A stretch of DNA of 64,000 bases from Neolewinella agarilytica (GTDB taxonomy: Bacteria; Bacteroidota; Bacteroidia; Chitinophagales; Saprospiraceae): positions 186,001 through 250,000 of the forward strand of contig NZ_FOFB01000004.1 of NCBI RefSeq assembly GCF_900110645.1, written 5' to 3'. Shown here one piece after another: positions 39,406 through 43,694 of the stretch (its first letter is position 1; every line of letters begins with the position of its first letter). The notes beneath the pieces were generated by a model. The model saw nothing but the letters and a program-made list of their open reading frames with translations. It ran no database searches and had not been told where the DNA came from. The position numbers and the translations under genes were made by a program.

Positions 39406-40233
39406 TTAGTGCTCTTCATTTAGTCGGCCACCACAATACTTACAGTAAGTAGCGTCATCGTCGTGGCCTTCTTTAGCACAGTAGCGGCAAACCTGGGTAT
39501 TCGTTTTCCGCGCCATTGCTGCCTGCTCAAACATTTCACTACTGACAATTCCGGTAGGTACTGCGATAATGGCGTAGCCAAGAATCATGACAACAGCGGA
39601 AAGAAACTGGCCAACGTCCGTTTGTGGTGTGATGTCTCCATAACCTACTGTAGTCAGGGTCACGATCGCCCAGTAGACGGCTCTGGGGATGGAGCTGAAT
39701 CCATCGTTTTGCCCCCCCTCAATAAGATACATTACCGAGCCAATCAAGACGACCAGCAAGGTTACCGCAAAGAGAAAAACGGTGATCTTATTTCTGCTGG
39801 CAATCATCGCCCGGCGGAGTTGGTCTCCCTCCGTTAAGAACTGACCCAACTTAAAGACTCGAAATACCCGCAACAATCGCAGGATGCGGATAATGACGAA
39901 ATACTGTGTCCCTACCAGAAAGAAACTTAGGTAAGAGGGGAGAATGGCAATGAGGTCAATGATACCATAAAAACTCAAGGCATACTTCAATGGCCGAATG
40001 GTCACCGTCAGTCTTAGTATGTATTCAATCGTGAAAACGATCGTGAAGATCCATTCTAAAACGTAAAAGAGGCCACTATACCTGGATTCCCACTCTTCTG
40101 AACTCTCCAGCATAACTACAATGACGGAGAAGACGATGAGAATCATCAATCCAATGTCGAAACGCTTTCCCGTAGGGGTGTCTGCTTCGAAAATAATTTC
40201 GTGTATACGATCACGCGTCTGGCGGTTGGCCAT
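39406..40233 (-). CDS. Voltage-gated-type K+ channel with C-terminal zinc ribbon
   Basis: 275-residue six-helix potassium channel. S4 is IIRILRLLRVFRVFKL with regularly spaced Arg; the pore loop carries the filter TTVGYGD in AIVTLTTVGYGDITPQT. S6 ends at about 238. The cytosolic tail is a zinc ribbon, CRYCAKEGHDDDATYCKYCGG, with two CxxC knuckles, an unusual place for a metal site; it could couple gating to redox or metal state. Likely passes K+ and helps set membrane potential. Cotranscription with the YihY gene 47 bp downstream is likely. Confidence 0.92.
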   Translation of the reverse strand: MANRQTRDRIHEIIFEADTPTGKRFDIGLMILIVFSVIVVMLESSEEWESRYSGLFYVLEWIFTIVFTIEYILRLTVTIRPLKYALSFYGIIDLIAILPSYLSFFLVGTQYFVIIRILRLLRVFRVFKLGQFLTEGDQLRRAMIASRNKITVFLFAVTLLVVLIGSVMYLIEGGQNDGFSSIPRAVYWAIVTLTTVGYGDITPQTDVGQFLSAVVMILGYAIIAVPTGIVSSEMFEQAAMARKTNTQVCRYCAKEGHDDDATYCKYCGGRLNEEH

Positions 40234-40664: not shown

Positions 40665-41429
40665 ATGTTATTGAATGCCGTAATCATTGAAGATGAACGC
40701 AATGGTCTGATTAACCTGAAACACCTGCTGGCTGAGCACTGTGAAGATGTCGAAGTTATTGGTGAGGCAGATGGCGTAGAGAGTGGGCTGAAACTATTTC
40801 AGCAAGAAGACATTAAGCCGGATATCGCCTTCCTGGATATCAATCTGCAAGACGGCAAAGTGTTTCAGTTGCTCAACCAATTGGAGAACATCGATTTTGA
40901 TGTGATTTTTGTCACCGCTTACGATCAGTTCGCCATGAAGGCCTGCGAATATTCCAGTATCGGCTACATTCTGAAACCCATCGATCCGGATAAACTCGTA
41001 GAGGCCGTTTCCAGGGTTCGACCTAAAAGGCAAGGGCGTACGGAAGAGCGCTTGCAGATCATGCAGCAGTACACCAGCCATCCGAATTCTTTCGAGAAGA
41101 TGTCCATCGCTGCTCTTGATGGCATTCATTTTGTGAAGATTCGCAACATTATGCGCTTCGAAGCAGAAGATAATTATACACATATTTTTCTGGAAGGCGG
41201 ACATCGTATTACAGCCTCAAAAACGATAAAGGCTTATGAGGACATGTTGACGCCTTTTAACTTCTACAGAGTTCATAAACGCCACGTGATCAACATGAAT
41301 TATATGAAAAAATTTGTAAAAGGTGACGGAGGGTACCTAATCATGGATGATGACGAAAAAATTGAGGTGAGCCGCAGAAGACGGCCCGCTTTCATGACGC
41401 AACTAAGAATGTTGCAAGACGTTTTATAG
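40665..41429 (+). CDS. LytTR-type response regulator
   Basis: 254-residue LytR/AlgR-family regulator. The receiver (1-120) has acidic residues ED in VIIEDERNG, phospho-acceptor Asp58 in IAFLDINLQDG, Thr84 region FVTAYD and Lys104 in GYILKPID. The LytTR DNA-binding domain (about 150-250) has DGIHFVKIRNIMRFEAEDNYTHIFLEGG, SKTIKAYEDML and FYRVHKRHVINMNYMKKF. Partner of the LytS-type kinase at 41748. A tiny double-glycine peptide gene lies between the two, 108 bases after this stop, and is its most obvious candidate target. Confidence 0.95.
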   Translation: MLLNAVIIEDERNGLINLKHLLAEHCEDVEVIGEADGVESGLKLFQQEDIKPDIAFLDINLQDGKVFQLLNQLENIDFDVIFVTAYDQFAMKACEYSSIGYILKPIDPDKLVEAVSRVRPKRQGRTEERLQIMQQYTSHPNSFEKMSIAALDGIHFVKIRNIMRFEAEDNYTHIFLEGGHRITASKTIKAYEDMLTPFNFYRVHKRHVINMNYMKKFVKGDGGYLIMDDDEKIEVSRRRRPAFMTQLRMLQDVL

Positions 41430-41448: not shown

Positions 41449-41456
41449 TATTTTTG
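41449..41456 (+). promoter_or_regulatory. -7 box of the peptide-kinase transcript
   Basis: TATTTTTG matches TAnnTTTG exactly, 20 bases after the regulator stop and 82 before the peptide ATG. A TTTTA at 41422-41426 could be -33 though 22 bases away. An imperfect 8 bp dyad (GCCAACCG/CGGTTAGC, about 41474-41501) follows in the leader and may be an operator or hairpin. Confidence 0.45.
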
Positions 41457-41537
41457 GATCGGTATTGAATACAGGCCAACCGGCGTTCCCCGTTCGGTTA
41501 GCGGTCATCTCTAAACGTGTACTTTAAGAATTTCTCT

Positions 41538-41687
41538 ATGTCACAGAATGGGAAAAAAACTATTGAAGAGCTAAAGCGGGACCAAAAAGATAAGATTTTG
41601 GACCGTAAAAGCATGGATCAGGTTACTGGTGGTAAACGCCGTGGTAGCTGGCTTCGTCGTGTTTATAACGGTATTATGCCGCAGTAA
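41538..41687 (+). CDS. Double-glycine-leader peptide precursor between regulator and kinase
   Basis: 49-residue ORF. The leader, residues 1-32, ends LDRKSMDQVTGG: Leu at -12, Met at -7, Val at -4 and Gly-Gly at -2/-1 relative to the cut, the classic pattern cleaved by C39-peptidase ABC exporters. The predicted core is KRRGSWLRRVYNGIMPQ, strongly basic (one Lys, four Arg) with Trp and Tyr and no Cys. It has its own -7 box upstream and lies 60 bases before the kinase ATG. Context (LytTR regulator, kinase) recalls pheromone or bacteriocin circuits of Gram-positives. No C39 exporter or modifying enzyme is in the window. Function is inferred only. Confidence 0.75.
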   Translation: MSQNGKKTIEELKRDQKDKILDRKSMDQVTGGKRRGSWLRRVYNGIMPQ

Positions 41688-41747: not shown

Positions 41748-43694
41748 ATGCCAACCCATCGAGGCTCGTTTACCGAGCTCCCTTACCTTGAAGAAAAACT
41801 TGCGGAGGCTACCAACCCGGCAGATCGGCAACATTATCTCGAATTACTTATCAGGCAGTACGTTTACGTAAAGCCGGTCAGGGCTCGTGAACTACTCCAA
41901 ATCCTACTGGATACAGCGAACGAAGTGTCGCCTGGAAGACTTTCCTTCTCTTATTTTCTACACCTCGCTAATCTTGAAGCGCAGGAATACGAAAGCCAAA
42001 AGGCTCTACCGCTTTTGCAGGAAGCCGTTGCACGAGTAGATCATGGAGGAGACATTGCTGATAAAATTGAAGTTTACCTCGATTATGTAGGCGTTCTGGT
42101 TGATTCCGGTAAACTGGATATTGCCCGGGATTACTTCGACCGTGCCAGCAGATTATTAGAGTCCTATTCAAGTGAGCGTCTTCGTTCAAGGGCGCTGGTT
42201 CGTCAGGGCTACTTATATCTTAACTCGTTTAGCTACCCGGAAGCAACTCCCATCTTATTAGAGGCGGAAAGGCTGTTCTCTTCTCTGGAGGATGAACTCG
42301 ATTTGAAGGACCACTATTTCTATACCCTCGTTCAGAGTGGTTTAGGCACATTGCAAATTCAGTCCGAAACTCTTGAAAGTGCAGCTGCAGCCTTCCAGCG
42401 GGCCATTGAACGCTGTGAACAGAAAGGCCTTAAAGCCAGATTGCCATGGCACCGACTCAACTTGTCGACGGCATTGGTTGGAATGGAAAAGTATGAAGAG
42501 GCCATCTCTAATGTTCAGTCCATTATCGATACCAAGGCTAACGGAAGTCGATTAGCTCTTGCCGCGGCTTACTTAAATCTGGGCATGTGCTTTTATTTTA
42601 CGAATGAGCCCGCAGAGAAGGTTACCCCTTATCTGGACACTGCAGAGGAGCTGTATCTGGCAGAGCCGACCCCTGATCGCCAGAAGATCGTTTCAATCGA
42701 AATTGCCAGGGCCCAACTCTCCTTTGACAAAAAAGACTTTGAGGCTTCCATTGAAAAGCTTTTGCAAACGCTGGATGACATGGACCCCGAGGCCAATGTG
42801 TCTAACCTTGAGATGATGGGGCATACGGTGGAGATTTACCAAATGCTGGCCAGCAACCACGAGCAGATTGGTGATTTTGAAATGGCCTACAACCACCAGC
42901 TTAACTACGATCACTACCTGGACATCTACAATTTCCTTCAGCGAAATAAACGGACAGAAGAGTTTGCCACTAAGTTTGAGGCCGCTCGTTGGGAAAAGGA
43001 AAGAGAAAGCCTTCAACTCAGGGCAAGTCAGTTGCAGCTGCGGGCACTGCGGGCCCAAATGAACCCTCACTTTCTCTACAATGCCCTTAACAGCATCCAG
43101 TCATTTATCACTACCAATGAAGCAAGCACTGCCTCAAAGTATCTGGCTAAGTTTGCAATGCTGATGCGCAGAAGCCTGGAATACACCAATCGGGAGTACA
43201 TCACCCTGGAGGATGAGGTCGAGTTTCTGACGGATTATCTGGAGATTAACTGTCACCTCAGGTTTGCCGGGCAGCTCTCTTATTCGGTGAAAATCGAGGA
43301 TGATCTTGAAGAGGATATCATCGGAGTTCCAACCATGATTTTACAACCTTACGTAGAAAATGCGATCGAACATGGACTTCGGACCAGGCCCAAAGGACAC
43401 ATTAAAGTATCCTTTAAAGCAATTGAAGGGGATGACAACAGCATCATTGCCGTAGTTTCCGATGATGGTATTGGCCGGGAGCGAGTCGCTGAAATGCAGG
43501 CTAATGACCCGACGCGTCCGTTTCATCAATCACGGGGAACGAGCATAACGCAGTCTCGCCTCGAACTATTGACCAATGATCCGGAAAACAGAGTTGTAGT
43601 TGATGATCTGAAGCATCCGGATGGTACGGCCGCAGGAACAAGCGTTACCATCAAAATTCCCGTGGCAGATGTCCTGCCAAGAAGAGGAGGGTAG
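41748..43694 (+). CDS. Soluble LytS-type histidine kinase with TPR-like sensor region
   Basis: 648-residue kinase of the His_kinase (PF06580) class, partner of the LytTR regulator. Residues about 10-400 are helical TPR-like repeats (ALPLLQEAVARVDHGGD, LDIARDYFDRASRLLESY, AAAAFQRAIERCEQKG, YEEAISNVQSII). A short coiled coil (about 405-435) leads to LRALRAQMNPHFLYNALNSIQSF with His441; the ATPase part has PTMILQPYVENAIEHGL and VSDDGIGRE. There is no signal peptide and no membrane helix, unlike most TPR kinases of Bacteroidota, so it should sense a cytosolic cue. It sits directly after the peptide gene. Confidence 0.93.
   Translation: MPTHRGSFTELPYLEEKLAEATNPADRQHYLELLIRQYVYVKPVRARELLQILLDTANEVSPGRLSFSYFLHLANLEAQEYESQKALPLLQEAVARVDHGGDIADKIEVYLDYVGVLVDSGKLDIARDYFDRASRLLESYSSERLRSRALVRQGYLYLNSFSYPEATPILLEAERLFSSLEDELDLKDHYFYTLVQSGLGTLQIQSETLESAAAAFQRAIERCEQKGLKARLPWHRLNLSTALVGMEKYEEAISNVQSIIDTKANGSRLALAAAYLNLGMCFYFTNEPAEKVTPYLDTAEELYLAEPTPDRQKIVSIEIARAQLSFDKKDFEASIEKLLQTLDDMDPEANVSNLEMMGHTVEIYQMLASNHEQIGDFEMAYNHQLNYDHYLDIYNFLQRNKRTEEFATKFEAARWEKERESLQLRASQLQLRALRAQMNPHFLYNALNSIQSFITTNEASTASKYLAKFAMLMRRSLEYTNREYITLEDEVEFLTDYLEINCHLRFAGQLSYSVKIEDDLEEDIIGVPTMILQPYVENAIEHGLRTRPKGHIKVSFKAIEGDDNSIIAVVSDDGIGRERVAEMQANDPTRPFHQSRGTSITQSRLELLTNDPENRVVVDDLKHPDGTAAGTSVTIKIPVADVLPRRGG

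Follow-up and report, generated by a model that had tools for sequence, protein, structure and literature searches.

A conserved double-glycine peptide gene beside a LytTR response regulator and a soluble TPR histidine kinase suggests an unusual form of peptide signalling in Neolewinella and other Saprospiraceae

The window, i.e., the whole 64,000-nucleotide stretch of Neolewinella agarilytica DNA analyzed here, contains a small gene for a double-glycine (GG) peptide that, judged by its comparison across the genus, is a real, conserved gene under purifying selection, and its position beside a response regulator or a soluble receptor-like kinase suggests an unusual form of bacterial peptide signalling. 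Our preferred reading, to which we assign a probability of about one half, is that the ORF encodes a signal, namely an exported linear peptide that would be read by the soluble TPR kinase in a manner resembling the action of RRNPP systems, albeit with differently built components. The features of the locus are collected in Table 1.

Table 1. Features of the peptide–regulator–kinase locus, in window coordinates
Feature	Coordinates	Strand	Details and evidence
LytTR response regulator (receiver + LytTR DNA-binding domain)	40665..41429	+	Pfam LytTR E 1.7e-18, Response_reg E 6.3e-14
TATTTTTG promoter box	41449..41456	+	upstream of peptide ORF
Three imperfect repeats ATCGGTATT / ACCGGCGTT / AGCGGTCAT	41458..41508	+	21-bp period; possible LytTR operator (weak lead)
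Precursor peptide	41538..41687	+	49 residues; genus matches, alignment, pN/pS
GG leader, 32 residues	41538..41633	+	Leu -12, Met -7, Val -4, Gly -2/-1
Predicted mature core KRRGSWLRRVYNGIMPQ	41634..41684	+	17 residues; C-terminal motif conserved across family
Soluble TPR sensor histidine kinase, 648 aa	41748..43694	+	His_kinase E 3.8e-22, TPR_12 E 1.4e-10
TPR superhelix, kinase residues 8-390	41769..42917	+	model, mostly pLDDT 80-97
His_kinase + HATPase_c regions, kinase residues 430-639	43035..43664	+	Pfam

The precursor consists of the leader MSQNGKKTIEELKRDQKDKILDRKSMDQVTGG followed directly by the core and a stop codon, and its gene is placed between those of the LytTR response regulator and the TPR and His_kinase protein. 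The leader displays the hallmark of C39-exported peptides, viz., a GG motif preceded by hydrophobic residues at -12, -7, and -4. There is an alternative in-frame start (GTG at 41517), and we prefer the ATG at 41538 because the genus alignment supports it. Upstream lies what we take to be a Bacteroidota-type -7 promoter box (consensus TAnnTTTG), and a TAnnTTT(G/A) box precedes the peptide ORF in 15 of 17 Neolewinella loci. The CGGTATT-like repeats between this box and the peptide start, which are restricted to the window and its close congeners, might constitute a LytTR operator: their 21-bp period is prominent among 35 family upstream regions (z 4.1) and ranks only second in the genus upstream regions (z 2.6 vs 3.3 for a 14-bp period), and, as the shuffles preserved base content only and these regions are AT-rich, we treat it as a lead, not a result. 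The window additionally codes on its reverse strand (39406-40233) for a potassium-channel-like protein, with a TVGYGD filter that we take to be the potassium-channel signature, and a homologue occurs near the cassette, on either side, in 13 of 16 congeners (within the 16 kb examined).

Strong matches to the peptide (E 4.6e-8 or better) were recovered from 17 of 21 genus genomes, i.e., the window genome and 16 of its 20 congeners, with G009, G013, G018, and G019 returning none. The absence in G009 and G018 may be an assembly gap, since the former is 55% complete and the kinase of the latter is cut at a contig start. The 17 aligned peptides yield the consensus MAQNGKKTIEELKRDQK.K.LDR..MDQVTGG-KRRG.W.RRVCGGIMPQ, from which the window core deviates in reading VYNGIMPQ (C-terminus YNGIMPQ): its Tyr-Asn at 41664-41669 corresponds to Cys then Gly in 14 of 16 congeners and Cys is kept in 15, the exceptions being L035 (Ala-Gly) and L046 (Cys-Gly-Asp). 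Over 16 of the 17 sequences (L046 left out of the count), pN is 0.134 vs a near-saturated pS of 0.737, indicating purifying selection that extends over both core (0.101/0.715) and leader (0.150/0.751). The gene order is likewise constant, with an orthologous LytTR regulator upstream and a TPR/His_kinase gene downstream of the peptide in all 16 congeners (in L035 the contig ends within the kinase). Its shortness and the lack of a Pfam match to the window peptide would fit a chance ORF with no function; however, the low pN relative to pS and the retention of frame and place across many genera run counter to this, and given such conservation we consider that reading already refuted, with a negligible residual probability. 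The initial annotation, made from the letters of the stretch, had described a 49-residue GG-leader ORF with Leu -12, Met -7, Val -4, and Gly-Gly, its own TATTTTTG box, and a place between response regulator and kinase in a Saprospiria-type bacterium; all these details are present and the host is a member of the Saprospiraceae. Its expectations of an ORF conserved in relatives, a selection pattern unlike that of noncoding DNA, and a C39 exporter elsewhere in the genome are equally borne out, the last by five C39 genes.

Across the family as a whole, column counts over 54 distinct peptides (rows anchored on the leader GG; the unlinked g62 peptides, L121, and L185 left out) define a coherent family. 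The leader has L/I/V/F at -12 in all 54, Met at -7 in 45, and I/V/F/L/M at -4 in 52, and is followed by a core of 16-28 residues that usually ends in CGGI(x)PQ. Read backwards from the C-terminus, the conserved positions are Q (46), P (53), a variable hydrophobic residue, I (45), G (44), G (42), and C (41). A scan of 107 loci with the family motif returned 58 distinct matches, 53 at regulator or kinase loci and 5 in unlinked relatives that share the C-terminal style of the family; the scan covered 2.5 million strand-bases, with some DNA counted twice, and is descriptive as the motif was derived from the family itself. NCBIfam and Pfam searches with 20 family peptides yielded nothing beyond weak matches, chiefly to models of general GG leaders or bacteriocins. 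Six of these 20 weakly matched the rSAM-RiPP model TIGR04149 (best E 1.9e-4), and this, together with the Cys found seventh from the end in 41 of 54 peptides and the lanthipeptide-type cluster on contig C43 of the genome, could point to a RiPP whose CGGIxPQ cysteine and glycines are modified by an unlinked enzyme before export. Against this, the Cys is replaced by L, F, I, Y (in the window), A, S, or G in 13 of 54 peptides and no modification enzyme was noticed beside the peptide locus, and we judge such modification very improbable. Given these replacements, the family can evidently do without Cys chemistry, and this speaks against a functional role for a disulfide, thioether, or thiolactone.

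A search of 396 genomes of the order with the response regulator (positive at E<=1e-75) identified 66 genomes from 27 genera, 15 of them in the genus of the window. Among 39 regulator loci of at least 55% identity from non-genus Saprospiraceae, 37 have a GG peptide within about 0.85 kb downstream (five of these identified by eye), and in the two exceptions, G330 and G140, the peptide lies just before the kinase, on a contig other than that of the regulator. Twenty-nine of the 39 have the kinase at most about 4.5 kb downstream; of the other 10, all nine that were searched have it elsewhere in the genome (the copy in G390 is incomplete), and the tenth, G330, has it beside the peptide. Thirteen further loci at 48-54% regulator identity, comprising 12 genomes of the genus g62 and a second copy in G365, have neither peptide nor kinase adjacent. 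Eight of nine searched genomes of this group carry the full kinase, and five of six g62 genomes examined carry an unlinked peptide relative (L116, L178, L179, L180, L182), a longer precursor encoded away from regulator, kinase, and exporter, with a (C/F)GGTIPQ C-terminus in 4/5. The parts of the system can thus separate on the chromosome, yet, going by these gene contents, tend to remain together in genomes. Consistently negative are the regulator-negative genomes G013, G019, G067, G080, and G093, in which the kinase search found no full-length kinase. The boundaries of the system are nevertheless soft, since G060, regulator-negative at the threshold, has the kinase, a C39 gene, and a divergent peptide-like ORF (L121, 1501-1647) that ends in ACGGIIKQ and lies downstream of a regulator of 39% identity. 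A phylum-wide peptide search matched 9 of 296 genomes at E<=0.01, 6 of them outside the family; no regulator orthologue adjoins these loci (L117-L120, L122-L126), and they therefore look like other GG leaders.

This distribution bears on the function of the peptide. It might be an output and not a ligand, with the kinase sensing a cytoplasmic cue and the regulator controlling a peptide that acts outside the cell, be it as a bacteriocin or as a matrix or adhesion factor. Bacteriocins often have GG leaders and cationic cores, the family cores have a net charge of +1 to +7 in 51 of 54, and the window peptide has a weak similarity to bactofencin A (16.3 bits vs a cut-off of 35). However, the window locus shows no apparent gene for immunity or modification, the C-terminal motif is common to many genera, which is unusual for a bacteriocin, and the peptide accompanies the regulator or the kinase in 39 of 39 non-genus cases; we hence consider an output role unlikely. 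Of the two functions offered by the initial annotation, a peptide-signalling or a bacteriocin circuit, the former thus gains and the latter is weakened, because the locus lacks an apparent immunity or modification gene, the core persists across many genera, and the peptide stays with its regulators.

The kinase itself sets the system apart. Its TPR_12 match (41.6 bits vs a cut-off of 30.1) is clear, and HATPase_c falls just below its cut-off (23.6 vs 26.4 bits). A hydropathy scan of the window kinase found no hydrophobic segment, with no 19-residue stretch above 1.06 on the Kyte-Doolittle scale, for which the usual membrane threshold is 1.6, and none above 1.58 was seen in 14 congener and 30 family kinases; we accordingly predict it to be cytoplasmic. 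The N-terminal part instead carries about 380 residues of TPR helices. The structural model of the kinase (mean pLDDT 81, pTM 0.61), in which the TPR superhelix is predicted with high confidence and the stretch at 426-445 poorly, retrieved in Foldseek, as top matches, TPR proteins solved with peptide ligands: LGN ranked first, APPBP2, a C-degron receptor, came 20th, and Rap of phage Phi3T, solved with its pheromone, 22nd. The modelled superhelix thus plausibly resembles peptide receptors, Rap among them; such TPR fold matches are generic, and render peptide binding plausible rather than proven. Across congeners the TPR half is more divergent (32-55% identity to the window kinase) than the catalytic half (61-82%), as is expected of a sensor. 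The parallel drawn earlier with Firmicutes LytTR/LytS-like pairs, in which a membrane kinase reads the peptide outside the cell, does not hold here: given a kinase with TPR helices and no hydrophobic segment, sensing must differ from that mode.

The peptide locus is devoid of an exporter gene. The five C39 genes of the window genome include one on contig C37 that codes for a 731 aa protein with Peptidase_C39 and ABC domains and adjoins a gene for an HlyD_3 protein; no convincing GG peptide was found in its neighborhood in the window genome. Three other C39 loci (on contigs C30, C73, and C26) have a GG ORF near each and the fourth is lanthipeptide-type. We infer that the C39 ABC/HlyD pair on C37 probably handles the peptide; the lack of an exporter at the peptide locus and the four further C39 genes of the genome are points against the signalling reading. 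Orthologues of the C37 exporter (57-98% identity) are present in 18 of 20 congeners, i.e., 19 of 21 genus genomes, including G009 and G018 despite their missing peptide match, and are absent only in G013 (100% complete) and G019 (98%), the two genomes that also lack the peptide, the regulator, the TPR kinase, and any C39 gene. Across the 396 order genomes, C39 is present in 66/66 regulator-positive vs 114/330 regulator-negative genomes (Fisher p 9e-27, kinship ignored). As for uptake, SBP_bac_5 proteins occur in 21/21 genus genomes, including G013 and G019; being present even where the system is not, they make import possible and do not pin down the importer.

Among the other C39 loci, L165 (G000 contig C43, 64500-76500) is a lanthipeptide-type cluster in which genes for a LANC_like protein, a lantibiotic dehydratase, and a C39 ABC exporter adjoin one another. 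L166 and L167 (G000 contigs C73 and C26) code for two near-identical C39 exporters, each near a hydrophobic GG-type ORF; from their sequences these ORFs look bacteriocin-like, and one gives a weak match, below cut-off, to the cerein family.

A soluble kinase and the lack of a linked importer would also be compatible with a gauge of export, in which the TPR kinase would bind, within the producing cell, either the precursor before export or the leader after cleavage and would report exporter capacity, requiring neither re-import nor cell-to-cell signalling. While conservation covers the leader in addition to the core, the residues best preserved outside the leader are those of the C-terminus, which a reader of leaders would not need, and the peptide has no fixed place beside an exporter; we regard this proposal as rather unlikely. 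In the preferred signalling reading, a C39 ABC/HlyD exporter, probably the C37 pair, would cut the 32-residue leader and export KRRGSWLRRVYNGIMPQ. Since the kinase is soluble, the peptide would be needed inside the cell, and it or its C-terminal part would re-enter the cytoplasm, be it that of the producing cell or of a different one, where the free C-terminal motif would bind the concave face of the TPR superhelix. The ensuing shift in kinase activity would let the LytTR regulator switch its target genes, perhaps including the peptide-kinase unit. The fully specified version of this, i.e., export-import quorum sensing in a Bacteroidota family by a linear GG peptide that is exported by a shared C39 transporter, carries its signal in a C-terminal GGI(x)PQ, and is re-imported to be read by a soluble TPR histidine kinase, is put forward tentatively, as a joint claim that falls somewhat short of even odds.

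If true, it would link peptide reception inside the cell, as in RRNPP systems, with two-component signalling, in an arrangement that arose apart from those of Firmicutes, and would provide both a role for C39 exporters with no local substrate and an example of a soluble histidine kinase gated by a peptide. The peptide-kinase-regulator set offers a candidate signal, receptor domain, and exporter in a marine family of Gram-negative bacteria, and a single synthetic 17-mer would suffice to test each of them. We found no description of such a set among the open-licence literature matches listed, an absence that is not proof.

Several known systems share some of these elements. TIGR04149 and other Bacteroidota GG-leader RiPP precursors have, by weak matches, a similar leader style (L....M..I.GG), and differ from the present system in its two-component linkage and the lack of a noticed modification enzyme at the locus. 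The bactofencin A family (NF038163) also combines a GG leader with a basic core, and we take the local similarity of bactofencin A to the window peptide to run over the RVYN..MP stretch. Membership in that family was rejected, the window peptide scoring below the curated cut-off and having no Cys, whereas bactofencin has a Cys7-Cys22 disulfide (PMC5465099). Similar in composition are the streptococcal ComCDE, BlpRH, and GSP-BlpHR systems, which likewise comprise a GG peptide, a C39 exporter, a LytTR regulator, and a histidine kinase. Their kinase, however, is a membrane protein, with 5 transmembrane regions reported for BlpH (PMC8545106), whereas the present one is a soluble TPR protein and the exporter gene lies elsewhere in the genome.

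The RRNPP/RRNPPA systems (Rap-Phr, PlcR-PapR, NprR, Rgg-SHP, AimR) provide a parallel in logic. In these, as here, a small propeptide gene adjoins that of a cytoplasmic TPR protein, an adjacency seen for the present peptide in 16/16 congeners and, with the kinase within about 4.5 kb, at 29/39 non-genus loci. The TPR receptor has its counterpart in the TPR_12 match, the lack of a hydrophobic segment, and the modelled TPR helices, with a cytoplasmic location that is predicted; the linear unmodified peptide with a conserved C-terminal part also has its like, predicted here from sequence. The architecture differs in that the receptor has 648 aa as against the 250-500 aa given for RRNPP receptors in PMC10075063, and in that its output is a His_kinase acting with a LytTR regulator in place of the HTH or Rap-type output described in PMC9765709. 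Export would be via a GG-type leader as opposed to the Sec or PptAB routes that the same sources indicate for RRNPP peptides. Finally, the reception of peptide signals by TPR proteins inside the cell has been described for Firmicutes, the hosts of RRNPP systems (PMC10075063, PMC9765709), whereas the peptide, regulator, and TPR kinase described here belong to Bacteroidota.
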